DNA from: Hyphomicrobiaceae bacterium
GTDB taxonomy: Bacteria > Pseudomonadota > Alphaproteobacteria > Rhizobiales > Hyphomicrobiaceae
Reading direction: 5' to 3'
DNA: 64,000 nucleotides
Assembly: GCA_022844225.1 (NCBI GenBank)
Contig: JALHMC010000014.1
Coordinates: 1-64,000 of the forward strand
This document shows, piece after piece, positions 1,617 to 41,526 of this stretch. Each line of letters opens with the position of its first letter. The stretch's first letter is position 1. The position numbers and the translations under genes were made by a program. The notes beneath the pieces were generated by a model. It made no database searches, was not told the origin of the DNA, and saw only the letters and a list, made by a program, of their open reading frames with translations.

Positions 1617-4184
1617 TCAGCGGGACAGCTCCTCCTTAACCTTCGCCGCCAACTGAGGAAGTGAGAACGGCTTGGCGAGGAATGCATAATGAGCGTCCGC
1701 GTCAAGACCGGTCTTGAAGCGGTCGTCGGGATAACCCGAGACGAAGATGACCTTGAGGTCCGGGCGCGATTTGCGCATCTCGGTCAACATGGTCGGGCCA
1801 TCCATCTCCGGCATCACGACGTCGGAGACGACGATGTCGATCGGCTCCTGCTCGCTCGCGTAGATCTCGAGAGCCTCGAGACCTGTGGTCGCCTCGAGAA
1901 CCACATACCCTTGGCGCTTCAACGCGCGGACCGCGAAATTCCTCACGGAGTCCTCGTCCTCGACGAGGAGCACGCGTCCGGTCCCCGTCAGATCACGGGA
2001 CCGCTCGGGTTTGGCTACCGGTTGCGCTTCACCCGGCTCGGGGGCGACCGACGCCTGGGGTAGATGGCGCGGGAGGTAAACGCGGAACGTGGTGCCTTTG
2101 CCCAGCGTGCTTTCGGGGAAAATGTAGCCACCGGTTTGCTTGACGATGCCGTAGACCGTCGAGAGCCCCAGTCCGGTGCCCTTGCCCACGTCCTTGGTCG
2201 AGAAGAACGGCTCGAAGATCTTCGCCATGACCTCCGGCGTCATCCCGGTGCCTGTATCCTCGACCTCGATCAGAACATACTCGCCCGGCTGGACCGCCAA
2301 CGACCGGAGCTTCAGGGACTCGCGCTCGGTGACATTGCGCGTCTTGACCGTAAGGCGGCCGCCATTCGGCATGGCGTCCTTGGCGTTGACGGCAAGGTTC
2401 ATGATGACTTGGCCGAACTGCGTGCGATCTGCCTTGATCAGCCAAAGATCGCGACCGGTGACGAGCTTCAGGTCAATCTTTTCGCCGATGAGGCGACTGA
2501 CGAGGACCGACAAATCGGTCATCACTTCGCCGAGTTCCAGGACCTCGGGAGTCAACGTCTGGCGGCGCGAGAAGGCAAGGAGCTGGCGAACGAGGCCGGC
2601 CGCGCGATTGGCCTCCTTCTTGATGTTCATTATGTCCTTATGGGCTGGATCGAACGGCCGGTGAGTCTGCAGCAACAGATCCGAGAAGCCGAGGATTGCC
2701 GTGAGGACGTTGTTGAAATCGTGCGCGATGCCGCCAGCGAGTTTGCCCACGGCCTCCATCTTGGTGGACTGTGCGTACTTGACTTCGAGCGCCTTCTGCT
2801 CGGTTGCATCGATGGCGTAGAGCATTGCGCTCTCGCCTGGACCCAGGCCGGCGCGCGTCGGGCTGACGAAGAGTCGGCGGGTGAACTGGCGCTCCGCACC
2901 AAAAGACACCTCGATCGGGGCTAGTGTCGCCCGTCCTGAGCGTGCCTCGGCCATCGCGGCATCGACGGCTTTGAGTGCCTCGGTATCGCCGGCGGCCTCG
3001 ATCAGGGCACGTAAAGTTTTGGCCGGACCCAGACCGGCGTCGAAGAACATGCGAGCGAACGCGGCATTGAACGATTGGATGGCGCCATCCTGACCGAGTG
3101 TCGCGATGCCGAATGGGGCGGCATGAAACAGTCGCTCGAAGCGCGGTCCGCCGTCGTCGTTCTCCGAGCCGGCCGGGGTGCCGGAGCGTGAGAGGACGAG
3201 TGCGGAGAAATCGACTCCGCGCTCGCTTGAACCCCCGAGGCGGGCCACGATCTCGACCGGTATACCGATCCCGTCCTCACGGACGAGATCCAGGTCGAGG
3301 CGCACGACCTCTCCCGAGGCGCGGGCGAGGGCCGCACGGAGAAGTGCGTCGCCGTCACCGGCGACGATGTCTGCGAGGGACAGTTCCCGCGCGCGGGCTG
3401 CCTCTGCGTCGAGCCCCAGCCAACCGGCGAGCGTCGCATTGAGATGTGTGATGGTTCCGTCCAGACTGCAGCCGAACAGGCCGATGGGCATGGCCTCATA
3501 GCGTCCGATCTCGGCTTCGAGGTCGCGGACAGCCTCAGCTTCGTGAGCGCGCTCGCCCGAGATATCGGTGAGCTGCCACAGCCGCGACGCACGAGCGAAA
3601 CGGTTGTCGCCGGATTTCACGGGACTGACAGCGAGACGCAACCAACGCCCCGAGCGGGCGCGATTGTCGAGATCGCGGATACGAAACTCCTCGCTTCGCT
3701 GCTCGCCGAGTTCGGCGGCTCGCATCAAGCGGAAGATGCACTCGGCCGCCTGAGGCTCGCCAGCAAACGCGACCTCGAGACTGCGTGCCTCGCCGTCCTG
3801 ATCCGTTCCAGCGAGGTTGCGATAGGCGGCGTTGGCATAGACGATGCTGCCGTCACGGCCAGTGATCATGACGCCGGTGTCGATCAGCTCGCCCGCGATT
3901 GCCGCGATGCCTTCGCCGGAATCGTTGCTCGCTCCGATCCGGATGTGCCCCGCAGCAAGACCGAAGAGGAAGAAGCTGCCGACCATCCCGAGGATCGAGA
4001 GGATTGCGAGAAGTATCGGATCGCTGGCGCGAGCCGAGACAACAACTAGCGCCCCGAGGCCCAAGGCTGTCAGGATCGCGAGAACAACAAAGAGAACTCC
4101 CATCCCCGGCGTCTGCTCGGGGGCATTGGAGCCCACCTGAGCTTCGGGGCGGCGTACGTCTGTCCCGATCATGCGGACAGACAT
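1617..4184 (-). CDS. cckA: Cell-cycle hybrid histidine kinase CckA
   Basis: Membrane-bound hybrid kinase that in alphaproteobacteria feeds phosphate through ChpT to the master regulator CtrA and to CpdR. Order: two N-terminal membrane segments (about residues 25-80), several PAS regions, a HisKA/HATPase core, then a receiver domain. The H-box GGIAHDFNNVLTAILGF holds the phospho-accepting His. The N-box NAKDAMPNGG, the G-boxes DTGTGM and GKGTGLGLS, and the receiver SDVVMPEMDGP are all intact. A TTG start at 4277 is possible, but the ATG at 4184 is preferred, giving about 855 residues. It is divergent from the FliO-like gene, with CtrA-like half-sites between them. Confidence 0.9.
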   Translation of the reverse strand: MSVRMIGTDVRRPEAQVGSNAPEQTPGMGVLFVVLAILTALGLGALVVVSARASDPILLAILSILGMVGSFFLFGLAAGHIRIGASNDSGEGIAAIAGELIDTGVMITGRDGSIVYANAAYRNLAGTDQDGEARSLEVAFAGEPQAAECIFRLMRAAELGEQRSEEFRIRDLDNRARSGRWLRLAVSPVKSGDNRFARASRLWQLTDISGERAHEAEAVRDLEAEIGRYEAMPIGLFGCSLDGTITHLNATLAGWLGLDAEAARARELSLADIVAGDGDALLRAALARASGEVVRLDLDLVREDGIGIPVEIVARLGGSSERGVDFSALVLSRSGTPAGSENDDGGPRFERLFHAAPFGIATLGQDGAIQSFNAAFARMFFDAGLGPAKTLRALIEAAGDTEALKAVDAAMAEARSGRATLAPIEVSFGAERQFTRRLFVSPTRAGLGPGESAMLYAIDATEQKALEVKYAQSTKMEAVGKLAGGIAHDFNNVLTAILGFSDLLLQTHRPFDPAHKDIMNIKKEANRAAGLVRQLLAFSRRQTLTPEVLELGEVMTDLSVLVSRLIGEKIDLKLVTGRDLWLIKADRTQFGQVIMNLAVNAKDAMPNGGRLTVKTRNVTERESLKLRSLAVQPGEYVLIEVEDTGTGMTPEVMAKIFEPFFSTKDVGKGTGLGLSTVYGIVKQTGGYIFPESTLGKGTTFRVYLPRHLPQASVAPEPGEAQPVAKPERSRDLTGTGRVLLVEDEDSVRNFAVRALKRQGYVVLEATTGLEALEIYASEQEPIDIVVSDVVMPEMDGPTMLTEMRKSRPDLKVIFVSGYPDDRFKTGLDADAHYAFLAKPFSLPQLAAKVKEELSR

Positions 4185-31420: not shown

Positions 31421-31508
31421 GGCGACGCGGACGCGCTCACTTGCGATGATGCCGCGAGCTCGGCCTATACTGGTGCAACCTGCGCTTCTGCCACTCTCAG
31501 AGGTCTCT

Positions 31509-33119
31509 ATGTCCGATGCCAAGCCGCTCGATGCCGTGACGCTCGAGATCGTATGGACACGATTGATCTCGTCCGTGGACGAGGCGGCGAAAGTGATCGT
31601 GCGGACGTCGTTCTCGACGCTCTCCAATGAGGCCAATGACTTCGCGTGCGTGCTGACCGATGCCAACGGGGGATCGCTGGCCCAGAACTCGGGTAGCATT
31701 CCGTCTTTCATCGCCTGCCTGCCGGCCACGGTGCGCCATTTCCTCACGCGGATGGGGCCCGAGCAGATGCGGCCGGGAGACGTGCTGATCACCAACAATC
31801 CCTGGGACGCGACGGGGCATCTCAACGACATCACGCTTGTGAAGCCGATTTTCCGCGGCGAGCGGTTGGTTGCGTTCGCGGCCTCGACGTCGCATGTGCC
31901 GGACATCGGCGGCCGGGTGCGTTCCGTTGAGCCGAGGGAGCTTTATGAAGAAGGCTTCCATATTCCGCTGATGCATCTGATCCGCGAGGGCAAGCCGGAC
32001 GAAACACTGATCAGCCTGCTGCGGACGAATGTCAGGACGCCCGACCAGACGCTCGGCGACGTATGGGCGCAAGCAAGTGCGCTCTCCGTCATCGAGGCGC
32101 GTCTCGCGGCGACGATGGACGACTACGGGCTCGAGGATCTCGAAGCCTTTGCAGGCGATCTCTTTCAGCGCTCCGAGGCGGCGATGCGTGCCGCGATTCG
32201 CACCGTCAAGCCGGGAACCTACCGTTACGCCATGAAGACGGACGGCCTCGACGAGCCGTTCGAGTTCAGAGTGGCGGTTACGATTGAAGACGACGAGGCA
32301 GTGTTCGATTTCACAGGGACTTCGCCGCAGCAGCCGCGGGCCATCAATTGCGTCATGGCCTACACGTTCGCGATGACAGCCTATGCGATCAAGTGCGCGC
32401 TCTTGCCCAACCTGCCCAACAATGAGGGCGTGCTTCGCCCGATCAAGGTCATCGCCCCGGAGGGCACTCTGCTCAATCCGCGGTTTCCGGCCCCGTGTGG
32501 CGGACGTTCGGCGACGGGGCACTACGTGCCGGCGCTCATCTTCGGGGCGCTGCATCAGGCGATCCCCGAGAAAGTGATGGCGGCCCCGGGCTCACCGCTC
32601 TGGATTTTCACGCTGGCAGGGCTTGCCGACGATGGCAGGCCGTTTGCGACGGTGCTGTTCTACAATGGTGGACTCGGCGGGCGGAAGGCCGGGGATGGCG
32701 TCTCGGTGTTGTCGTGGCCATCGAACATTTCGTCGACGCCGGTCGAGGTCGCCGAGCAGTCGGGCCGGTTGTTCTTTCGCGAGAAAGCGCTGAAGAGCGG
32801 ATCGGGTGGCGATGGCGAGACGCGCGGAGGGCTTGGCCAGTCGATCGAGATCGAGTGCCTGTCGGAGCGCGAGCTTTCGGCGTGGTTCGTGACGGAGCGA
32901 ACCAAGATCGCGGCGCCCGGCATCGGCGGTGGCGCGAACGGCGGCCTCGGCAGGGTCGCCATCAACGGGCAAGACGTCGATACGCGTCGCATGCATCTTC
33001 TCAAGCGCGGCGATGTCGTGATGATCGAGACACCCGGCGGCGGCGGCTACGGCGATCCGCGGCGGCGGCCCGAGACGGCGCGTCGGCGCGACCGTGACAT
33101 GGGATATGTGGTGACCTGA
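31509..33119 (+). CDS. Hydantoinase B / oxoprolinase family protein
   Basis: A 536-residue HyuB-type subunit. In known systems HyuA and HyuB together use ATP to open hydantoins, 5-oxoproline or similar rings, or carboxylate acetone/acetophenone. Family blocks include VIVRTSFSTLSNEANDFACVL, GDVLITNNPWDATGHLNDITL near residue 98, FRGERLVAFAASTSHVPDIGG and the glycine-rich end GGGGYGDP. The ATG at 31509 has AGAGG ahead. No hyuA-like gene adjoins it, so it is an orphan subunit or works with a distant partner. Confidence 0.88.
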   Translation: MSDAKPLDAVTLEIVWTRLISSVDEAAKVIVRTSFSTLSNEANDFACVLTDANGGSLAQNSGSIPSFIACLPATVRHFLTRMGPEQMRPGDVLITNNPWDATGHLNDITLVKPIFRGERLVAFAASTSHVPDIGGRVRSVEPRELYEEGFHIPLMHLIREGKPDETLISLLRTNVRTPDQTLGDVWAQASALSVIEARLAATMDDYGLEDLEAFAGDLFQRSEAAMRAAIRTVKPGTYRYAMKTDGLDEPFEFRVAVTIEDDEAVFDFTGTSPQQPRAINCVMAYTFAMTAYAIKCALLPNLPNNEGVLRPIKVIAPEGTLLNPRFPAPCGGRSATGHYVPALIFGALHQAIPEKVMAAPGSPLWIFTLAGLADDGRPFATVLFYNGGLGGRKAGDGVSVLSWPSNISSTPVEVAEQSGRLFFREKALKSGSGGDGETRGGLGQSIEIECLSERELSAWFVTERTKIAAPGIGGGANGGLGRVAINGQDVDTRRMHLLKRGDVVMIETPGGGGYGDPRRRPETARRRDRDMGYVVT

Positions 33120-33150
33120 ACCGACGGCCAGGCGGTCCGGTGCCGTCGGT
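33120..33150 (+). terminator. Rho-independent terminator after the HyuB gene
   Basis: ACCGACGGC pairs with GCCGTCGGT in a perfect nine-pair stem with a 13-base loop, directly after the stop codon, and is followed by the T-rich run CTTCTT. Confidence 0.75.
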
Positions 33151-33205
33151 CTTCTTGACCCGGGCGACCAAGTCAGTGGGGACTAAGCGCGCGGATGCCG
33201 GGCGC

Positions 33206-33406
33206 TTACTTTCCGTTTTTCTGGGCGAGGTCTTTCTTGCTCGTCTGCGCCTCGGGGAAAACCCACATGGCGATTACGGCGAAAACGGCGAAGCCGACCA
33301 CCAACCAGAAAAGATGATCCTTGCCGATCGAGCTTTCCCAGTAACCGACCGCTATGCCGACCAGCAGCGTGATGACGGACAGGATGGCTTTGACATCATT
33401 GGGCAT
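33206..33406 (-). CDS. Small two-helix membrane protein
   Basis: 66 residues from the ATG at 33406. Two hydrophobic helices are clear: AILSVITLLVGIAVGYW and LFWLVVGFAVFAVIAMWVF, joined by a short charged loop (ESSIGKDH), with a Lys-rich tail (SKKDLAQKNGK). An in-frame start at 33511 would add 35 polar residues and is less likely. It lies about 140 bases after the leftward fatty-acid-hydroxylase-like gene and may be the last gene of that operon. Function unknown. Confidence 0.6.
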   Translation of the reverse strand: MPNDVKAILSVITLLVGIAVGYWESSIGKDHLFWLVVGFAVFAVIAMWVFPEAQTSKKDLAQKNGK

Positions 33407-33544
33407 GGGCGAGTTCTCGGGGTCGCGAACTGATGTGGCCGGGAGGCGAGGCCAGCGCTGGATCTGAGCACGTGATCTGCTGGTCCACACTCTGACCCTC
33501 TCCTCATGCAATTGGAGGGCATGGGGAGAGGGGGTTCTCGTTTC

Positions 33545-34315
33545 TCAATAGTTTCCCATCGGGGCGGCCGCGGCCTCGTCGGGGCGTTTCGGGCGACCGC
33601 GGAGGTTCGACTTCAAGTGCCTCGTGTCATAGCCGTTGAAAAGGTGGCCGACGAGCCCTCGGTCCAGATCCGACGTGCCGAACAGCCAGTCGGCGATGGG
33701 GAACGTCAGGTTCATGTTCGTCTCCATCATCAGGCGCGCGTTGTGGTGCGCGGTGTGATGACGCCGGAGTGTGTTCACGAACGGGCAGTTCCTGACGAAC
33801 CAGTTCTCTTCGACGTGGCAGCAGAAGTGCATGAACTCGTAAAGGAGATACATGCCCGTCGTCGTGCACATGAAGAGCCAGCCGACGTTCGGCGTGAAGA
33901 TCTTGCCGAGGATGATGCCGGCGGGGATCGACATGAGGATGAAGACGACCAGTGCGTAGGGCGGGAAGACTGTAACGCGCCAGTCCTTGTGGTCGCGGAA
34001 ACGCATCTCCTCGTCCGTGAAGAACTGGTGGTGGTTGAGCGTGTGGCGCTCGTAAACCGCACGCAAGCCACGGATGTTGATCGGCCGGTGCATGATGAAC
34101 TTGTGCACCCACCACTCGAAGAGATTGGTGAAGAGGAACGTCAGCGGGATGGTCATCAACTCGAGCCAGCTCGGCGCGGAGAGATGCTCAAGGTAGATGT
34201 AGAACGCGGCGGCGCCCATCGCGTAGATGATCGCGATGTGAAGATAGCCGTCGTAAAATCCCATGATGCGCGACCGGTATTCGTGCCGGAAGGCTTTCTG
34301 GCGCTCGGTGATCAT
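33545..34315 (-). CDS. Sterol desaturase / fatty acid hydroxylase family protein
   Basis: A 256-residue integral membrane di-iron enzyme of the fatty acid hydroxylase superfamily, which hydroxylates or desaturates lipids, sterols or carotenoids. The histidine clusters that hold the two irons are visible: HKFIMHR (near residue 71), HTLNHHQFF (near 91), HFCCH (near 162) and RRHHTAHH (near 184). At least four hydrophobic segments surround them. The start ATG at 34315 follows the dioxygenase gene by 53 bases on the same strand. It is the only membrane enzyme in a leftward operon of oxygenases; substrate unknown. Confidence 0.88.
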   Translation of the reverse strand: MITERQKAFRHEYRSRIMGFYDGYLHIAIIYAMGAAAFYIYLEHLSAPSWLELMTIPLTFLFTNLFEWWVHKFIMHRPINIRGLRAVYERHTLNHHQFFTDEEMRFRDHKDWRVTVFPPYALVVFILMSIPAGIILGKIFTPNVGWLFMCTTTGMYLLYEFMHFCCHVEENWFVRNCPFVNTLRRHHTAHHNARLMMETNMNLTFPIADWLFGTSDLDRGLVGHLFNGYDTRHLKSNLRGRPKRPDEAAAAPMGNY

Positions 34316-34368
34316 TCGTCTCGTCTCACTGCGTTCGAGCTGGTGGATTCAAGTCAGAAGAGGATCGT

Positions 34369-35181
34369 TCAGGCGGTTGCCATAGCCGCCTGCAAAATGC
34401 CGTCGTCGGCCACGGTCTCGAGCGGCTTCCAGTTGCGGGAGCGCACGTAATCCGGACGCGGCTTCTCGACGTCTCGCGGGCGATTGGCGACGGTGTTGTA
34501 GCAGAAGTAGGCCTGCCAGCGATCCTGGACCGAAAGATTATGGCCGGAGGCGTGGACGAGGTTGCAGTCGAATACGGTGAGTGAGCCCGGTTTGCCGGTG
34601 ATGGCGACGGGCTCGCCGTATTCGCCGATGATGCGCTTCATGTCGGTCGGGGTCAGTGACCAGACCTTGTAGGCGGTCGAGGTATCAAAGTAGGGATCGA
34701 CGCGGCCGATCACGTGCGTGCCCGGGATAAAGTAGAGACAGCCGTTCATCTCCTTGGACGCGTCGAGGCCGACCATCATCGTGAGCATCGTGGGACGCTC
34801 GATGCCGTCGTTGAACCAGGAGCCATAATCCTGATGCCAGGGCCAGATCGAGCCTTCGATCGCGGCCTTGATGTTGACCTTGGTGTGATGAAGGTAGAGA
34901 TCGTCGTCGCGCAAGAGCTGCTGGGCGACACCCAATGTTCGTGGCAGGCGGACGGCGGCATTGAACACGGGCGACGCGGTGGCACCGTCGGTCTCGTGCA
35001 TGCGGAACATGATCTTCGGCACTCTGCTCGTGCCCTCGCGTACGACCATTTCAGTGTCGATCTCGGACACGCGGCCGACCTCGCGGCGCATGGCTTCGAC
35101 TTCGGCGGCCGTAAAGAACTCGGGAAAGTGGAGATAGCCGTCGCGGTCGTATTGGGCGATTTGGGCTGGGGTGAGCTGCAT
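34369..35181 (-). CDS. Phytanoyl-CoA dioxygenase family protein (1)
   Basis: A 270-residue Fe(II)/2-oxoglutarate-dependent oxygenase. The metal triad is visible as WHQDYGSW (His and Asp, near residue 115) and the distal LVHASGHN His (near 214), with FIPGTHVIG before it and a downstream Arg for 2-oxoglutarate. The family includes phytanoyl-CoA hydroxylase and ectoine hydroxylase EctD. No ectoine genes are near, so another small substrate is likely. AAAGGA precedes the ATG. It is one of two PhyH members in the same leftward operon. Confidence 0.88.
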   Translation of the reverse strand: MQLTPAQIAQYDRDGYLHFPEFFTAAEVEAMRREVGRVSEIDTEMVVREGTSRVPKIMFRMHETDGATASPVFNAAVRLPRTLGVAQQLLRDDDLYLHHTKVNIKAAIEGSIWPWHQDYGSWFNDGIERPTMLTMMVGLDASKEMNGCLYFIPGTHVIGRVDPYFDTSTAYKVWSLTPTDMKRIIGEYGEPVAITGKPGSLTVFDCNLVHASGHNLSVQDRWQAYFCYNTVANRPRDVEKPRPDYVRSRNWKPLETVADDGILQAAMATA

Positions 35182-35202
35182 AGTTTGTCCTTTGTCGATG
35201 GG

Positions 35203-35640
35203 TCAGCCGAAGGCGCGGCGGTCGGGCAGCATTTCGATCAGACGTTTCGTGTCGTGTTCGCGTTCGATGAGATGGCGGCGCTTCTCGGATGCGTCGTCGT
35301 CATCGTCGATCTCGGCAAGCAGAAGGTGCTTGAGCATGCGCTGGGCGAGCTGCGCCTCCGTCGGATGCTTCGCGAGGGTCGCGTCGATCAAGTCATGCCG
35401 CTCGGGCCCGAGCGGCTTCATGGTGATCAGTCGACCGGCGGTGTCGAGCGCCAGATAGCCGCCCTGGAATAGATCTCCTGCCCGGAGGTCTCCGACCAGC
35501 GCGTCGAGAGATTTGAAAGTGTCAACGTCACCCGGCTCTCGAGGATCTGCAGGATTGTGGTTGAGGATCACGAGAACGTCTGGCCTCTTGCCGGGGAGAA
35601 GACCGGCACGGCGCAGTCCGTTCATCAGGCTGTTCAGCAC
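35203..35640 (-). CDS. Hypothetical protein, 145 aa
   Basis: A soluble protein with an acidic patch (LLLAEIDDDDDASEKRRHL) near residue 110 and a basic/acidic C-terminal helix. GTG at 35640 is the likely start, because AGGAGA lies six bases ahead; an ATG at 35625 also exists. It sits between two dioxygenase genes, 21 bases upstream of one and 37 bases after the NTF2-like gene, so it belongs to the same operon. No known family recognised. Confidence 0.65.
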   Translation of the reverse strand: MLNSLMNGLRRAGLLPGKRPDVLVILNHNPADPREPGDVDTFKSLDALVGDLRAGDLFQGGYLALDTAGRLITMKPLGPERHDLIDATLAKHPTEAQLAQRMLKHLLLAEIDDDDDASEKRRHLIEREHDTKRLIEMLPDRRAFG

Positions 35641-35677
35641 TTGCGTTCTCCTGTCCCGCCCTGCTCTTCAAACGCCT

Positions 35678-36091
35678 TCAGGGTGTGGCGGCGGCCATGA
35701 CGCGGGCGGAATCGAAGAGTTCGATCACCGAGGTGGCTTGGCCCTGCTCGAAGGTCCACAGATGGGCGCTTGGCGTCTCCACGGTCTTGCCCGTCTGCTT
35801 GTTGGTCCAGGCACAGTCGGCGAAGACGGCAATCCGGTCGCCTTCCGTGACGAACGTGTGCGGAGTCCAGTGGACCATCGTCCAATGGCGCGCCAAGCCT
35901 GCAAAGTATTCGACTGCGTCGGCTTTGCTGCGTCGCTCCTGAGCGAACGCCAGTGGTTGAGCCTCCGCACCGAGCGACTGGATGTGGACCTTGTCTGCCA
36001 GCAGATCGAGCCAAATCTCGGGTCGGGCGCCTTTGCTGTCGTCCCAGGCCTGATACGCTGCCTTCAAGCGATCGAGATTGGTCACTGGCAA
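35678..36091 (-). CDS. NTF2-like / SnoaL-like protein
   Basis: About 137 residues with the NTF2-like pattern of an N-terminal helix (LDRLKAAYQAWDDSKG), a strand block (IWLDLLADKVHIQSLG) and paired strands (WTMVHWTPHTFVTEGDRIAVFADCAW). This fold serves as a dehydratase, isomerase or ligand pocket in many catabolic operons. The start is TTG at 36091, or more likely GTG at 36085, with GGGAG nine bases ahead. It lies 30 bases after the second dioxygenase gene in the leftward operon. Confidence 0.75.
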   Translation of the reverse strand: MPVTNLDRLKAAYQAWDDSKGARPEIWLDLLADKVHIQSLGAEAQPLAFAQERRSKADAVEYFAGLARHWTMVHWTPHTFVTEGDRIAVFADCAWTNKQTGKTVETPSAHLWTFEQGQATSVIELFDSARVMAAATP

Positions 36092-36121
36092 CTGCTCCCG
36101 TTGTCTGCGCGGCGATCAAGC

Positions 36122-37036
36122 TCACATCATGCCGCCGCGGGCTTTCGCGTCCTCGCCCTGTTGCTTCGCGAAGATCGACGAGTAGCCACCGGACCAGTCG
36201 GGCGGAATGAGGCAGGGGCGAGGATCGTGATGGGCCCAGAGTGCCGGCTTGCCCCGCACGATCTCGCCAGCCCGCGGCGAGGGGATCGGGTTGAACGAGT
36301 AGGGCATCGCATTGGCATTCGAATAGACGTTGAGCAGCAGCGGACGCGCGATGGGGGAGTTGTTCGGCTCGGAGTAATGAAGCGAGCGGCAATTGTGGAT
36401 GGTGATCGAGCCGGTTTTCGCCTCGAGCCATTGGACTTTCGAGGTGTCGAGTTTGGCCGTGTCCTCTTTTGAAAGGCAACCGACCCATTCACCGTTCTCA
36501 TCGTACTCGGAGTAGATCGGGCCATTGTGGCTGCCAGGAATGAAGCCCATCGGCCCTTGCTCGCGATTGCAGTCGTAGATGTAGGTGCCGGCGGTGCAGG
36601 GCGTGTAGTTGGTGTGGGGCCAGGCGGGAATGTCCTGATGCCACTTCACCTCGGCGCCACCCTTCGACCATTTGAAGTTCAGCTTCGAGTGATGGAACTT
36701 CACGTCCGGCCCGACGAGATCGGCGATAATGTCAGGCAACGGCGACTGGGCCGACGACGCGTACTCCCAGAAAACGGGATGATGATCGACGGGGCTCGAC
36801 AGGCGGCGCAGGCGCGGATTGTCGGCGCTGTGGCCTGCCTCCATGTCCCAGACGGCGTCGCGCTTCGTGACCTTGCGGCTTTGCTCGATCATCTCGTTGG
36901 TGGCCGCGCGCAGCCTCTCGACCCAAGCCGTCGAGATCGCGTTCTCGACCAGCAGATGGCCATCCTCGAAGTAGCTTTCGCGTTGCCTCTGAGAGAGGAC
37001 CCGGGGCGGAATCGAAAGGATCTGCTCTGGTGTCAT
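36122..37036 (-). CDS. Phytanoyl-CoA dioxygenase family protein (2)
   Basis: A 304-residue Fe(II)/2-oxoglutarate oxygenase, distinct from the one at 34369. The metal-binding pair is in VKWHQDIPAW (near residue 131), the distal His in IHNCRSLHYSEPN (near 220), and the Arg for 2-oxoglutarate in ARPLLLNVYS. A GFIPGSHNGPIY block matches the family. Its ATG at 37036 has GGAGG ahead. It is the first gene of the leftward oxygenase operon and is divergent from the paaG-like gene, so the two share a control region. Confidence 0.87.
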   Translation of the reverse strand: MTPEQILSIPPRVLSQRQRESYFEDGHLLVENAISTAWVERLRAATNEMIEQSRKVTKRDAVWDMEAGHSADNPRLRRLSSPVDHHPVFWEYASSAQSPLPDIIADLVGPDVKFHHSKLNFKWSKGGAEVKWHQDIPAWPHTNYTPCTAGTYIYDCNREQGPMGFIPGSHNGPIYSEYDENGEWVGCLSKEDTAKLDTSKVQWLEAKTGSITIHNCRSLHYSEPNNSPIARPLLLNVYSNANAMPYSFNPIPSPRAGEIVRGKPALWAHHDPRPCLIPPDWSGGYSSIFAKQQGEDAKARGGMM

Positions 37037-37131
37037 GTATCCTCCGGCGTGCTGGCGCAGCTCCCGTCGACGCTGGGCGCTTGGATTGCAACCCCTTTTG
37101 CCGATAGACGTCTGCCCCGCGGGTGCGTCTG

Positions 37132-37141
37132 TGATATATCA
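37132..37141. promoter_or_regulatory. Palindrome in the divergent control region
   Basis: TGATATATCA is a perfect ten-base palindrome in the 234 bases between the leftward oxygenase operon and the rightward paa/box cluster, close to the centre of the gap. It may be an operator or may contain a promoter -10 element. Its sequence composition stands out against GC-rich surroundings. Confidence 0.35.
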
Positions 37142-37189
37142 GCCTATGGGCTGCGCAGGCAGAGGTCAACGGCGAGACGATGTCGATCC

Positions 37190-37213
37190 CATTGCCATTG
37201 TCATTGTCATTGA
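37190..37213. repeat. Four tandem hexamers CATTGN
   Basis: CATTGC, CATTGT, CATTGT and CATTGA follow one another without gaps, 57 bases ahead of the paaG-like start. The repeat could be a slippage tract or a set of phased half-sites. It is too short for a typical satellite. Confidence 0.5.
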
Positions 37214-37270
37214 GACCAGCCCCGGCAGCGGCCAATATGCTGCTGTGAAACGCGGTCATGGAGTTCGAGT

Positions 37271-38059
37271 ATGGCAAACGACACGGTGCTGGTGGAACGA
37301 AACGGCGGCATCGTGCGCCTGACGCTCAACCGGCCAGACAAGCTCAACGCGCTTTGCCGCGAGGTGGCTGAGGCTTTGGCTCCGGCACTCGAGGCGGCCG
37401 ACCGGGACGAAAAGTGCCGCGTCGTGGTGTTGACGGGAGCGGGGCGTGGCTTCTGCGCAGGGCAAGAGCTGTCTGACGAGGTCTACGCCAAGAGCGGACC
37501 GCAGCCGGATCTCGGTGAGGTGCTGGATCGCTACAACCCGATCATCGAGCGCATGCGCGGGATGGCGAAGCCCATCGTCGGGGCGGTGAACGGCGTAGCG
37601 GCGGGCGCCGGCGCCAGTCTGGCGCTCGCCTGCGATATCGTGATCGCGCGCCGATCGGCGACATTTCTGCAGGCGTTCGCGCGACTCGGCCTGGTGCCCG
37701 ACTGCGGCTCGACGTGGCTGTTGCCGCGGCTGATCGGCGAGGCCCGGGCGCGGGGCCACGCGATGCTGGCGGAACCGATCAAGGCCGACCAGGCCGAGGC
37801 GTGGGGGATGATCTGGAAGGCGGTCGACGACGACAAATTCGATGCCGAGGTGACGGCTGTCGCGGAGCGACTCGCATCGGCGGCCACCTATGGGTTGGGA
37901 CTGCAGAAGCGGGCTTTTGCGGCGGCGGCGGGCAACGATCTCGGTGGCCAACTCGCGCTCGAGAAGTTGCTGCAGCAGCAGGCGGCTGCGTCCGTCGACT
38001 ACATCGAGGGCGTCACAGCATTCCAGGAGAAGCGGCCGGCGAAGTTCAATGGCCGATAG
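37271..38059 (+). CDS. paaG: PaaG-like epoxide isomerase (crotonase family)
   Basis: A 262-residue crotonase-fold protein close to PaaG, which isomerises the ring epoxide of phenylacetyl-CoA to an oxepin. PaaG hallmarks are kept: GRGFCAGQELSD near residue 58, VNGVAAGAGASLALACDIV (oxyanion hole) and LGLVPDCGSTWLLPRL with the Asp used by PaaG. GGAG precedes the ATG. It is the first gene of the rightward cluster with a PaaI-like thioesterase (12 bases downstream), a PaaK-like ligase and BoxB. Assignment as true PaaG rests on motif likeness; another epoxide substrate is possible. Confidence 0.85.
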   Translation: MANDTVLVERNGGIVRLTLNRPDKLNALCREVAEALAPALEAADRDEKCRVVVLTGAGRGFCAGQELSDEVYAKSGPQPDLGEVLDRYNPIIERMRGMAKPIVGAVNGVAAGAGASLALACDIVIARRSATFLQAFARLGLVPDCGSTWLLPRLIGEARARGHAMLAEPIKADQAEAWGMIWKAVDDDKFDAEVTAVAERLASAATYGLGLQKRAFAAAAGNDLGGQLALEKLLQQQAAASVDYIEGVTAFQEKRPAKFNGR

Positions 38060-38070
38060 CGGGAGCGACG

Positions 38071-38502
38071 ATGAGCAGCCCTGATGCCGATGCCATTGCG
38101 CGGGCCAGTGCCGAGGCGATGTGGGCAGAGGACAACGCGAGCCGTGGCCTCGGGATGCGGCTCGAGCGGGTCGGGCCGGGCTCGGCCGTGCTGTCGATGG
38201 AGATCACGGCCGCCATGGTGAACGGGCTCGGTGTCTGCCACGGTGGGTTCATCTTCACACTGGCCGACAGCGCGTGTGCCTTCGCTTCCAACAGCTACAA
38301 TCAGCGCATGATACTTGCGCAGAGCCAGATCGCGTTGGTTGCTCCAGCTCGGCTCGGCATGCGGCTCGTTGCCGAAGGCACAGAGCGGCAGCGGGCCGAT
38401 CGCAGTGCCATCTATGACGTGCGGGTGACGAGCGATGCCGGCGAGGTGATCGCTGAGTTCCGCGGACACGTGAGAAGCATTCCGGGCAAGCTGTACGGGT
38501 AG
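38071..38502 (+). CDS. paaI: PaaI-like hotdog thioesterase
   Basis: 143 residues with the hotdog-fold signature VCHGGFIFTLADSACAFASNS near residue 57. PaaI releases CoA from dead-end aryl-CoA intermediates, protecting the CoA pool. The ATG at 38071 has GGGAG eight bases ahead, and the gene lies between PaaG- and PaaK-like genes as in phenylacetate operons. An earlier in-frame start at 37714 is a shadow inside paaG. Confidence 0.88.
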   Translation: MSSPDADAIARASAEAMWAEDNASRGLGMRLERVGPGSAVLSMEITAAMVNGLGVCHGGFIFTLADSACAFASNSYNQRMILAQSQIALVAPARLGMRLVAEGTERQRADRSAIYDVRVTSDAGEVIAEFRGHVRSIPGKLYG

Positions 38503-38596: not shown

Positions 38597-39907
38597 ATGC
38601 AAGTTCTGACACCGGAGCGTTTCGAGCTCGATCCGATCGAGATCGCGCCTGTCGAGGTGATCCGCGGGCTTCAACTGCATCGGCTGAAGTGGTCGCTCAA
38701 GCACGCCTACGAGAACGTGGCGCACTACCGGCAGGCTTTCGATGCAGCAAACGTCAAGCCGGAGGATCTTCGCTCGCTCGACGACTTGAGGCTGTTCCCG
38801 TTCACGGCCAAGGCGGATCTCAGGGCCAACTATCCTTTCGGGATGTTCGCGGTGCCACAAGCTCAGCTCGCGCGCATTCATGCGTCATCCGGCACAACGG
38901 GGAAGCCGACGGTGGTCGGCTATACCAAGCGGGATCTGGCGACGTGGGCGCAGATGGTGGGACGGTGCATCCGGGCCTCCGGCGGGCGGCCGGGCATGAA
39001 GTTGCACAATGCCTACGGATACGGATTGTTCACGGGTGGCCTCGGATATCATGACGGCGCGACCGACTTCGGGTTGACCGTGATCCCGGTGTCGGGCGGC
39101 ATGACCGAGCGGCAGGTGCAACTCATCTCGGAGTTCGCGCCAGACATCATCACAGTGACGCCATCCTATCTGCTGGCGATCCTCGACGAGTTCCGCCGTC
39201 AGGGCCGTGACCCCAGGAAAACCTCGCTCAAGGTGGCGATCCTCGGGGCTGAACCCTGGACGGATGCCATGCGGGCTGAGATCGAGGCGGCCTTTGATAT
39301 TCACGCGGTGGATACTTACGGGCTTTCCGAGGTGATCGGGCCGGGCGTCGCCAACGAGTGCGTGGAAACGAAGGACGGGCCGCACATCTGGGAGGACCAC
39401 TTCTATCCGGAGATCGTCGACCCGGAGACGGGGGCGCCGGTCGCGGAGGGGGAACTGGGTGAGCTGGTGTTCACGTCGCTGACCAAGGAGGCAATGCCGA
39501 TCATCCGGTACCGCACGCGGGATCTGACGCGCCTGATACCAGGCACCGCGCGCTCGATGCGCCGGATGGAGCGCGTCACCGGGCGGTCGGACGACATGAT
39601 GATCGTCAGGGGAGTGAATGTCTTTCCGACGCAGATCGAGGAGCAGATTTTCAAGGTCATGGGGCTGTCGCCACATTACCAGATCGTGCTGACGCGAACC
39701 GGGCGAATGGACGAGATGGAGGTGGTGGTCGAGGCGGCCGACCCCGAGGAGGGGTTAGAAATCCGGGCCAAAGCGGCAGGCGAACTCGGCCATCACATCA
39801 AGGGCGCCATCGGCGTGACGGCGAAGATTACCGTGGCGGAGCCTGGCAGCGTTGCCCGCAGCGAGGGCAAGGCCAAGCGAGTGATCGACAAGCGGAGCCG
39901 AGCATGA
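38597..39907 (+). CDS. paaK: PaaK-like aryl-CoA ligase
   Basis: A 436-residue AMP-forming ligase of the phenylacetate-CoA ligase family, which makes the CoA thioester that starts aerobic aryl acid breakdown. HASSGTTGKPTVVGYT is the phosphate loop; DTYGLSEVIGPG is A5; RTRDLTRLIPG is A7; RSDDMMIVRGVNVFPTQIEEQI is the hinge region. Length matches PaaK (~430). The acid could be phenylacetate, benzoate or a related compound; the neighbouring BoxB favours a benzoyl-type substrate. GGGAGGAAC precedes the ATG. Confidence 0.87.
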   Translation: MQVLTPERFELDPIEIAPVEVIRGLQLHRLKWSLKHAYENVAHYRQAFDAANVKPEDLRSLDDLRLFPFTAKADLRANYPFGMFAVPQAQLARIHASSGTTGKPTVVGYTKRDLATWAQMVGRCIRASGGRPGMKLHNAYGYGLFTGGLGYHDGATDFGLTVIPVSGGMTERQVQLISEFAPDIITVTPSYLLAILDEFRRQGRDPRKTSLKVAILGAEPWTDAMRAEIEAAFDIHAVDTYGLSEVIGPGVANECVETKDGPHIWEDHFYPEIVDPETGAPVAEGELGELVFTSLTKEAMPIIRYRTRDLTRLIPGTARSMRRMERVTGRSDDMMIVRGVNVFPTQIEEQIFKVMGLSPHYQIVLTRTGRMDEMEVVVEAADPEEGLEIRAKAAGELGHHIKGAIGVTAKITVAEPGSVARSEGKAKRVIDKRSRA

Positions 39908-40074
39908 CGTCGGCCCGCGAAGTTTACGGAGCATACGCAAAAGCGTCGCCATCGGATCGCAATCCGGTAAATTGGGTGCTCAGAATCCGTGCAATCTAAT
40001 GATAGACTGCCGGCATGACGGCGGTCGGTCGCCCCGCCCAACGTAGAAATGTCTGGTCCCTCACGAGTGAGCCG

Positions 40075-41526
40075 ATGCCCGATACGACCTTCGTCGACTA
40101 CTCGACCAAGATCCCGAACAACGTCAACCTGGCATCGGACAACCGGGTGCTGAAGGCGTTGGAACAGTGGCATCCGGGGTATATCGACTGGTGGATGGCC
40201 ATGGGTCCTGAAGGGTTCCAGTCGTCCGACGTGTATCTGCGCACCGCCGTTTCCATCGATCCCAAGGGATGGGCGAAGTTCGACTACGTGAAGATGCCGG
40301 AGTACCGATGGGGAATCCTGCTGGCGCCGCAGGACGAGGATCGGCGTGTCAATTTCGGTGCGCACAAGGGCGAAAAGGCCTGGCAGGAGGTGCCGGGCGA
40401 GTATCGCGCCATGCTGCGCCGCCTCGTGGTGATTCAGGGTGACACGGAGCCCGCGTCTGTCGAGCAACAGCGCCACCTCGGCAAAACGGCACCGTCACTC
40501 TACGACATGCGTAATCTGTTTCAGGTGAACGTCGAGGAGGGCCGGCACCTCTGGGCGATGGTCTACCTGCTGCAGAAGTATTTCGGGCGGGACGGCCGCG
40601 AGGAGGCGCAAGGCCTGCTGGAGCGGCGCTCGGGTGACGCCGACAAGCCGCGGATGCTGGGCGCTTTCAACGAGGAGACGCCGGACTGGCTGTCCTTCTT
40701 CATGTTCACGTTCTTCACCGACCGTGACGGCAAGATGCAGCTCGAGAGCCTGGCGCAGTCGGGCTTCGATCCGATGTCACGCACCTGCCGGTTCATGCTG
40801 ACCGAGGAAGCCCACCACATGTTCGTCGGCGAGACGGGCGTGGGGCGCGTGATCGAGCGCACGTGCGAGGCCATGAAGGCCGCCGGCATCGATGATCCGT
40901 TCGATACGACGCGCATCCGGGCACTGGGCGTGATCGATCTGCCGACGATCCAGAAGAAGGCGAACCTGCACTATTCGCTTTCACTGGACCTTTTTGGATC
41001 GGAGGTCTCGACCAACGCAGCCAATTTCTTCAATGCCGGCCTCAAGGGTCGCTTCATGGAGACGCGGATCGAGGACGATCACCAGCTGACGAGCGCGACG
41101 TATCCGGTGCTCAAGCTGGTCGACGGGGATATTCGAACAGTGGACGAGCCGGCGCTGACGGCCATCAACATGCGGTTGCGGGACGATTACACGAAGGACT
41201 GCCAAGGCGGCGTCTCGCGCTGGAACCGCATCATCGAGAAGGCCGGCATCAAGTTTCAGCTCATGCTGCCGTCGGTCGCCTTCAACCGCAAAATCGGCGA
41301 GTTCAAGAGCATCGAGGCGTCGCCCGAGGGTAAGCTATTGGACGCCGAGCGGTGGATGAAGATGCGCGACCAGTGGCTGCCATCGAAGGCGGATGGCGAT
41401 TTCATCGCCTCGCTGATGCAGCCGTGCTGGGACCGCGGCAAATTTGCCCCGTGGATCGCGGCGCCGAAGGTGGGTATCGACCAGAAGCCCGGTGACTTCG
41501 AATATGTGAAGATTCACCGGGGATAG
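40075..41526 (+). CDS. boxB: BoxB-like benzoyl-CoA 2,3-epoxidase component
   Basis: 483 residues, di-iron oxygenase family of BoxB, which makes 2,3-epoxybenzoyl-CoA with O2. All six iron ligands expected from characterised BoxB are found at a constant offset: Glu125 (QGDTEPA), Glu155 and His158 (VEEGRHLW), Asp216 (FFTDRDGK), and Glu245 and His248 (TEEAHHM). The ATG at 40075 gives an N-terminus aligned with known BoxB; an ATG at 40015 would add 20 residues. It needs a reductase (BoxA), which is not in the window. Its gene follows the PaaK-like gene after 167 bases and is convergent with typA. Confidence 0.87.
   Translation: MPDTTFVDYSTKIPNNVNLASDNRVLKALEQWHPGYIDWWMAMGPEGFQSSDVYLRTAVSIDPKGWAKFDYVKMPEYRWGILLAPQDEDRRVNFGAHKGEKAWQEVPGEYRAMLRRLVVIQGDTEPASVEQQRHLGKTAPSLYDMRNLFQVNVEEGRHLWAMVYLLQKYFGRDGREEAQGLLERRSGDADKPRMLGAFNEETPDWLSFFMFTFFTDRDGKMQLESLAQSGFDPMSRTCRFMLTEEAHHMFVGETGVGRVIERTCEAMKAAGIDDPFDTTRIRALGVIDLPTIQKKANLHYSLSLDLFGSEVSTNAANFFNAGLKGRFMETRIEDDHQLTSATYPVLKLVDGDIRTVDEPALTAINMRLRDDYTKDCQGGVSRWNRIIEKAGIKFQLMLPSVAFNRKIGEFKSIEASPEGKLLDAERWMKMRDQWLPSKADGDFIASLMQPCWDRGKFAPWIAAPKVGIDQKPGDFEYVKIHRG

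Follow-up and report, generated by a model that had tools for sequence, protein, structure and literature searches.

The question raised by this locus is what a compact, oxygenase-rich operon does beside a divergent cluster of aryl-CoA genes, and whether the two belong to one pathway. The operon (positions 33206-37036, minus strand) lies in a 64,000-nucleotide stretch of contig JALHMC010000014.1 of a Hyphomicrobiaceae bacterium (assembly GCA_022844225.1), hereafter called the window. Its GC fraction is 0.638, and the draft genome to which it belongs (G000; 4.37 Mb) is 85% complete. Judged by which genes recur together in relatives, the conserved part of the operon is a PhyH-type oxygenase (PhyH1), a membrane di-iron hydroxylase (FAH) and a small membrane protein (TM2), not the six-gene set. 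These three belong to a recurrent module with a predicted GntR-type switch and exchangeable importers, and the module probably serves the uptake-linked oxidation of a small organic acid, with FAH as the first oxygenase. The features of the operon and its control region are as follows.

36122-37036, minus strand: PhyH1, PhyH-type 2-oxoglutarate (2OG)-Fe(II) oxygenase, the module's copy (PF05721, 98.5 bits, cut-off 22)
35678-36091, minus strand: NTF2/SnoaL-like small protein (PF12680, 42.3 bits, cut-off 27)
35203-35640, minus strand: orphan protein (no Pfam or NCBIfam match)
34369-35181, minus strand: PhyH2, second PhyH-type oxygenase, a genus-level addition (PF05721, 108 bits, cut-off 22)
33545-34315, minus strand: FAH, membrane di-iron hydroxylase of the FA_hydroxylase / sterol desaturase superfamily (PF04116, 44.1 bits, cut-off 31)
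33206-33406, minus strand: TM2, 66 aa, two hydrophobic segments, a common companion of FAH (nothing above a profile cut-off)
37132-37141, no strand assigned: palindrome TGATATATCA, predicted operator of an FCD-type GntR regulator, the only exact copy in the window
37141-37169, minus strand: possible leftward promoter, TTGACC - 17 bp - TAGGCT, running into the operator (by eye, weak)

The initial annotation had described five or six tightly spaced genes on one strand, and an arrangement of six was confirmed, with intergenic gaps of 30, 37, 21, 53 and 138 bp in the order PhyH1 to TM2. Only the start of TM2, which lies directly downstream of FAH, was moved, to the ATG at 33406 (MPNDVKAILS, as in relatives) instead of the TTG at 33511; its hydropathy peaks fall at residues 5 and 32. 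The gene identities given there also stood: the two PhyH, the NTF2-like and the di-iron hydroxylase domains scored above their cut-offs, the orphan was matchless, TM2 showed its two hydrophobic segments, and the profiles of PhyH1, PhyH2 and FAH place three iron oxygenases in one plausible operon. A consensus scan of positions 32900-37500 found no promoter, and terminators only at chance level, which is why the leftward promoter call is weak.

Relatives of FAH were sought in one genome per species (84,980 species), which gave 295, and the best 80 (64-93% identity) were retained. Neighbouring genes were called by means of a score for amino-acid composition, for which 14 window genes served as the training set, and were then clustered and scanned for domains. 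A second count used tblastn over 97 FAH loci, with a match accepted anywhere in the locus; these loci were not dereplicated, many of their contigs were short, and a transporter match in this count is not necessarily the module's own. Clustering and domain scans pointed to a recurrent set consisting of FAH, TM2, DUF6166 (PF19663), an FCD-type GntR regulator, a PanB-like protein (PF02548), mem144 (a membrane protein of about 120-150 aa) and an importer, either of TRAP type (DctP/Q/M) or a LIV-type ABC transporter. Per 97 loci, tblastn matched TM2 in 75, DUF6166 in 56, GntR in 44, the PanB-like protein in 31, PhyH1 in 24, DctM in 23 and LivH in 20. PhyH1 stood in the same-strand run of FAH in 16 of 81 loci (not dereplicated) and immediately before FAH in 15 of these 81, which were scattered across the FAH tree; the window PhyH1 was 65-69% identical to the PhyH encoded just upstream of FAH in L032, L035, L039, L042 and L043. 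The initial annotation had staked its reading on conservation of the gene set in related genomes. For the full six-gene set this failed, since it was found at none of the 80 best FAH loci, while PhyH1-FAH-TM2 did recur.

The module ranges over Hyphomicrobiales, marine Alphaproteobacteria, Beta- and Gammaproteobacteria, and plasmids. TRAP, PhyH1, FAH, TM2, PanB-like and GntR genes also occur in a 1.3-Mb genome (30% GC over the part examined), which its size and composition suggest to be of SAR11 type. FAH, mem144, DUF6166, PanB-like and GntR genes, much of the cluster, are present in the culturable Hansschlegelia zhihuaiae and in a Methylobacterium strain. FAH matched 23 plasmid records, ten of which were examined, one of them (Azospirillum) without annotation. 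The plasmid of Halomonas sp. KO116 carries FAH, a small hypothetical protein, DUF6166, GntR, a TRAP transporter and an aldehyde dehydrogenase, with no TM2 or DctM match at the tblastn thresholds used. On that of Hydrogenophaga sp. PBL-H3 a LIV transporter, a short-chain dehydrogenase/reductase (SDR), an alpha/beta hydrolase, DUF6166, FAH and a small protein occur, and the Methylobacterium nodulans plasmid has GntR, a major facilitator superfamily (MFS) protein, FAH, DUF6166 and panB, with ABC transporter genes upstream. The Cupriavidus sp. USMAA2-4 plasmid encodes a LIV transporter, DUF6166, FAH, a small protein, GntR, an SDR and an alpha/beta hydrolase. This last unit (L179, NZ_CP017750.1 321285-339971) is flanked by two Tn3-family transposases and, because the whole of it sits between them, may be mobile as a catabolic transposon. 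Alcohol and aldehyde dehydrogenases, SDRs and alpha/beta hydrolases were the enzymes found near FAH on the named plasmids. MFS proteins beside FAH were annotated on plasmids, including that of M. nodulans, and MFS look-alikes were seen in L168 and L169, identified by resemblance to a gene of L105.

Because unrelated importers (TRAP, LIV-type ABC, MFS) swap within the module, its composition suggests that it handles a compound imported from outside. The TRAP binding protein has 2hzk and 2zzv as its nearest solved structures, the ligands of which we take to be an alpha-keto acid and lactate. Together with the mixed list obtained for the LIV binding protein, this range was too broad to name a ligand. 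The open-licence literature yielded nothing on the module, which is apparently undescribed.

The candidate switch is the palindrome TGATATATCA. When the PhyH1/PaaG gap of the window was aligned with those of two members of the same genus (G001 and G003), one clearly conserved block was seen, the longer palindrome CTGATATATCAG, of which the last base differs in the window; a third member, G002, also has the palindrome, between PhyH1 (92% identical) and PaaG (95%). In the genus the leftward gene is about 27-95 bp away from it, and PaaG about 117-211 bp. Across the 80 related loci (1,026,543 bases) the core TGATATATCA occurred as 48 exact copies in 36 loci, while among 160 palindromic 10-mers of equal composition the runner-up had 15 copies and the median was zero. 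By number of loci it ranked first of all 1,024, followed by the GC-rich CGCCGCGGCG with 33 loci. Of the 48 copies, 44 preceded a module gene by no more than 300 bp (FAH 27, LivK 7, DUF6166 5, PhyH1 5) and four elsewhere. In the 400 bp before FAH, exact sites were present in 28 of the 78 loci with at least 300 bp available, and one-mismatch sites in 14 more; control windows from the same loci held a site with at most one mismatch in 53 of 1310 cases, some of which may cover genuine sites of other module genes. Inspection by eye placed TTGA[CT] or TTGCC at -30 of the site in 11 of 51 sequences and at -29 in four, a spacing that would bring the palindrome close to the -10/start region, as expected for a repressor site. 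The palindrome marks the GntR module and is predicted to be the GntR operator.

The draft genome holds exactly two TGATATATCA sites, one of them in the 234-bp PhyH1/PaaG gap; about 0.5 would be expected by chance per genome, and about 3 in 100,000 for a gap of this size (GC 0.638). The second exact copy is at C4:160447 (L190 9448-9457), about 350 bp from the contig end. On another contig, a GntR homologue (C17:2801-3436) is 63% identical to the module's regulator (E 5.5e-82) and adjoins a mem144 homologue (42%), with a one-mismatch site, AGATATATCA, 54 bp before mem144. As the gene order in L039, L042, L045 and L053 is mem144, PanB-like, GntR, the C17 piece resembles this segment minus the PanB-like gene. 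An importer was seen neither beside the window operon nor beside the C17 piece, and no genome-wide importer search was made. In the FAH tree, built without four of 81 rows (<225 or >310 aa) and without the duplicate L025, the window copy and that of G001 form a pair (support 99/87); their wider group contains L035 (97/89) and, less well supported, L032. Both of these are TRAP clusters with the order DUF6166-TRAP-PhyH1-FAH; the group also holds FAH-TM2 loci without a PhyH1 or importer match. Because the GntR homologue and mem144, with their one-mismatch site, stand apart from the window operon, the latter is rather more probably than otherwise a rearranged, split remnant of the GntR-linked module. 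In the simplest history, an ancestral TRAP-type cluster would have broken up, and PhyH1-FAH-TM2 with its palindrome would have settled opposite the paa/box genes and then acquired new genes.

Conservation inside the genus bears on which genes are new. FAH and TM2 are 93% and 76% identical in G001, PhyH1 is 92% identical in G002 over 204 residues, and PhyH2 is 77% identical in G003 over 176 residues, with 40% as the next best value among 103 family genomes. The orphan is 50% identical in G001; four of 397 order genomes gave a match to it at E<=0.01, convincing only in the genome itself and in G001. The NTF2-like gene had no match in the three other genus genomes (E<=0.001) or in 84 loci (E<=1e-8). 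Being rare or missing across the genomes searched, the NTF2-like gene, the orphan and PhyH2 look like local additions to the operon. The orphan was also compared with DUF6166, as a divergent member, and this was rejected for now (hhalign probability 2.3, a weak comparison with only two rows); its AlphaFold model was unusable (mean pLDDT 42.5).

PhyH1 and PhyH2 are 25% identical. In an alignment of eight PhyH rows including both window copies, H133, D135, H220 and R231 were invariant, presumably the positions expected for 2OG oxygenases (iron-binding HxD...H motif). Ectoine hydroxylase was rejected as an identity for either, the TIGR02408 scores of 49.7 (PhyH1) and 114.3 (PhyH2) bits being far under the equivalog cut-off of 336.5. 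PhyH1 has a paralogue (45%) in the same genome at G000:C3:90758-91633, and relatives of it at E<=1e-80 occurred in 45 of 385 sampled class genomes. At L074 5341-6174, too, another PhyH-like gene separates PhyH1 from FAH, an independent parallel to the PhyH pair of the window.

The membrane hydroxylase carries the histidine clusters H71/H76, H91/H95/H96, H163/H167 and H186/H187/H190/H191, all invariant in 31 aligned sequences; the His motifs are conserved in 82 FAH rows, and the motif HFCCH is invariant in both sets. This invariant Cys pair, and its genetic partners (importers, GntR, DUF6166 and TM2), set FAH apart from other PF04116 proteins. Its predicted structure (mean pLDDT 72.3, pTM 0.69) was nearest to the hydroxylase domain of Scs7p (Z 10.8, 200 residues, rmsd 3.9), an enzyme that hydroxylates sphingolipid fatty acids. 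However, the two share 14% identity, the Foldseek E was 0.052, and a Z of less than about 13 may be nothing unusual among helical bundles. The rows below Scs7p (ion channels and receptors, Z <=5.4) were dismissed as helical chance matches, and a sequence search for solved relatives gave one chance-like row (E 0.46).

A neighbouring FAH clade, split off with 100/100 support, is the best pointer to what the enzyme may do. Furan-acid (hmf-type) genes were present in five of its six tree loci, namely some or most of UbiD/UbiX, a Mo-hydroxylase, an AMP ligase, an enoyl-CoA hydratase, a GMC oxidoreductase and an aldehyde dehydrogenase; the sixth locus, from Caballeronia, had no furan-acid genes. Strong matches to the hmf genes of Dinoroseobacter shibae type were confined to L170, L171, L177/L184, L181 and L183. 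Those to the Mo-hydroxylase, AMP ligase, UbiD, UbiX and aldehyde dehydrogenase near window-type FAH did not exceed 33% and were taken as unspecific. Since no hmf-specific NCBIfam model was matched, gene content and the functions of HmfABCDE, HmfFG and HmfH, as given in passages of PMC12064950, are the basis of the hmf reading; for the GO16 cluster those passages name no such hydroxylase. A hydroxylase placed in a furan-acid cluster would be expected to oxidise a ring methyl to hydroxymethyl. The window-type clade (91 rows) differs from the hmf pathway in having GntR, DUF6166 and TM2 as partners instead. Because its neighbour sits in hmf-like clusters, the comparison suggests hydroxylation of small imported acids by the window's own FAH clade.

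One member of the neighbouring clade has been mutated. Dshi_3702 of D. shibae ('fatty acid hydroxylase', 191-kb plasmid) was identified as the plasmid FAH relative by its length (279 aa) and insertion position. It is 40% identical to FAH and has a TRAP transporter nearby, but belongs to the hmf-linked clade and is not of window type. To our knowledge, no enzymatic function is on record for it. The surrounding region of the 'killer plasmid' (pDSHI01 109000-134000, L184) holds an hmf-like-looking cluster with TRAP and LIV importers. According to PMC8831719, killing of the dinoflagellate was lost in the Dshi_3702 transposon mutant, and the mutualistic phase was lost in pDSHI01 transposon mutants in a 3-octaprenyl-4-hydroxybenzoate carboxy-lyase (UbiX-like), an aldehyde dehydrogenase and an AMP-ligase.

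Taken as an uptake-linked oxidation, the module would work as follows. GntR would keep the operon repressed and release it on binding an imported organic acid or its product. With the help of TM2, FAH would hydroxylate the acid on a methyl or methylene group at the membrane, by means of its di-iron centre and O2, and PhyH1 (here also PhyH2) would carry out further 2OG-dependent hydroxylation. Ordinary alcohol and aldehyde dehydrogenases would complete the oxidation, and in this genus the product may feed the adjacent CoA-ligase/Box route. FAH is annotated on plasmids as 'sterol desaturase family', and it appears to be part of a regulon with an operator-like palindrome, swappable importers and a repurposed PanB. 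Identifying the substrate would reveal which organic acid environmental bacteria import and oxidise, would assign a function to DUF6166 and TM2, and would set 'panB' annotations right; through the palindrome, the regulator and its inducer can be tested directly.

Several observations weigh against this reading. The FA_hydroxylase enzymes of established substrate act mostly on lipids and hydrocarbons. FAH is patchy: a sample of 398 genomes of the phylum contained it in nine cases at E<=1e-50, and it was found in two of the four genomes of the genus. Only the best 80 of 295 relatives were retained, and the sample is therefore tilted to close ones; the FAH tree was midpoint-rooted and came with a long-branch warning. 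Before FAH, 36 of the 78 loci lack even a one-mismatch site, and GntR and the palindrome are linked through their co-location. Loci close to the window FAH (L030, L031, L033, L034, L036) have TM2 and no PhyH1 or importer match, and in a marine FAH clade (M19/u571, nine rows) TM2, GntR and DUF6166 were all without a match. As to the split remnant, the second exact palindrome (C4:160447) has an unassigned 115-aa protein as its nearest called gene and no recognised module gene nearby, the C17 GntR match crosses one in-frame TGA at its end (the called open reading frame, of 261 aa, ends at 3427), and neither the PanB-like protein nor DUF6166 was matched in the 85% complete draft, in which there was no positive control.

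Opposite the operon stands the cluster with which it had been thought to be linked.

37271-38059, plus strand: PaaG-like enoyl-CoA hydratase/isomerase, heading the divergent cluster (TIGR02280, 336.4 bits, just under the cut-off of 345.15)
38071-38502, plus strand: PaaI-like thioesterase (named by eye and position; the related family F25 is in the same place in L025, L026 and L029)
38597-39907, plus strand: PaaK-type phenylacetate-CoA ligase (TIGR02155, 687.1 bits, cut-off 646.3)
40015-41526, plus strand: BoxB, benzoyl-CoA 2,3-epoxidase subunit (TIGR03225, 909.6 bits, cut-off 499.1)

The PaaK and BoxB models are thus matched in the divergent cluster, but as far as searched its link to the leftward operon exists only inside the genus. 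In the initial annotation a control region shared with the aryl-CoA genes had pointed to a joint oxidation route for an aromatic or isoprenoid acid. The shared region is real to the extent that PhyH1, the orphan or PhyH2 is divergent from PaaG in all four genus genomes, with the conserved palindrome between (the contigs of two of them stop inside the first leftward gene); however, the gap holds the operator-like site of another module. When neighbour genes (PaaK, BoxB, PhyH1 and others) were looked up in 84 loci, PaaK was matched only in L025/L029 and L026, and BoxB only in L025/L029. L025 and L029 are one G001 contig, fetched twice, and L026 is from G003, so that among these loci the linkage to aryl-CoA genes was not seen beyond the window's genus. 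Oxidation of an acid fits the new evidence, support for an aromatic one is indirect, and the isoprenoid alternative found none: sterol or terpene degradation was set aside, as no sterol or terpene genes were recognised among the largest neighbour families. On these gene associations, the leftward operon does not look like mainly an extension of the neighbouring benzoate-type pathway.

On the earlier idea, the two clusters would make up one aromatic-acid route: after hydroxylation by FAH and the PhyH enzymes, a methylated or alkylated aromatic acid would be activated by PaaK, and its ring would be epoxidised by BoxB. The constant divergence from PaaG in the genus favours this, as do the CoA ligase and enoyl-CoA hydratase among the furan-acid-type genes of the neighbouring FAH clade, the MFS transporter beside FAH in M. 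nodulans with its look-alikes in L168/L169, and a PaaK-like gene (37%) near the TRAP and GntR genes of PhyH1 in L142, a locus without FAH. Yet the PaaK and BoxB matches are restricted to the genus, the palindrome marks the GntR module and lies somewhat closer to the leftward gene, and there is no fixed enzyme set, because the first leftward gene varies (PhyH1, orphan, PhyH2) and FAH was confirmed in only two of the four genomes. A single aromatic route is accordingly regarded as unlikely.

Membrane lipids are a further candidate substrate, as OlsE and the fatty acid 2-hydroxylases hydroxylate such lipids. FAH-TM2 would then modify a membrane lipid, and the transporters would be mere companions in a membrane-adaptation regulon. 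PF04116 membership and Scs7p as the closest fold speak for this, and so do loci in which FAH-TM2 and the palindrome occur without an importer in the same-strand run (e.g., L030, L031, L034). It is nevertheless decidedly improbable, given that three unrelated transporter types accompany FAH, that the neighbouring clade sits in furan-acid-type clusters, and that plasmid units combine FAH with dehydrogenases or hydrolases, one of them between two Tn3 transposases. Finally, a permissive promoter could have collected genes opportunistically, with FAH-TM2 the only lasting unit and PhyH1, the NTF2-like gene, the orphan and PhyH2 independent of it. Gene content does vary between genus members, the 397 order genomes almost entirely lack the orphan, and no other genus genome matched the NTF2-like gene, but the recurrence of PhyH1 directly before FAH across the tree, and the second PhyH-like gene in L074, leave this the least credible of the alternatives, with very little probability attached to it. 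The uptake-linked oxidation of a small organic acid is preferred to all three.

The PanB-like protein belongs to the module and not to the window. It resembles PanB in its TIGR00222 score (289.1, cut-off 207.55) and in retaining the presumed Asp45, Lys112, His136 and Glu181, but differs in that Asp84 is replaced by Cys and Glu114 by Gln in all 28 rows that cover both motifs (30 rows in total). We take Asp84 and Glu114 (E. coli numbering) to be metal ligands of PanB; with both of these replaced, an ordinary pantothenate enzyme appears unlikely. A speculative role would be one-carbon salvage: FAH-TM2 would hydroxylate a methyl of an imported keto or (hetero)aryl acid, PhyH1 would work on the skeleton of that acid as well, and the rebuilt PanB-like protein would remove or transfer the hydroxymethyl by a retro-aldol reaction, all under a GntR/TGATATATCA switch that apparently reaches a streamlined marine genome. 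The window lineage would have dropped the PanB step and handed the acid to the CoA-ligase/Box route. Such a pathway would be new, if true, and the odds are heavily against it.

A few other gene associations were noted. The marine FAH clade (L086, L088, L090, L092, L093, L097, L099) pairs with an M19 membrane dipeptidase, and often also with a 570-aa protein without a Pfam match; L086 retains the palindrome before FAH. An IlvD-type dehydratase (named by eye) occurs near FAH-TM2 in L025/L029 (the same contig), L063 and L108. In the window, a lone HyuB-type (hydantoinase B/oxoprolinase) gene at 31446-33119 lies tail to tail with the operon, and in L080 and L084 a HyuB homologue (36-37%) stands beside a 698-aa HyuA-looking gene, upstream of FAH.

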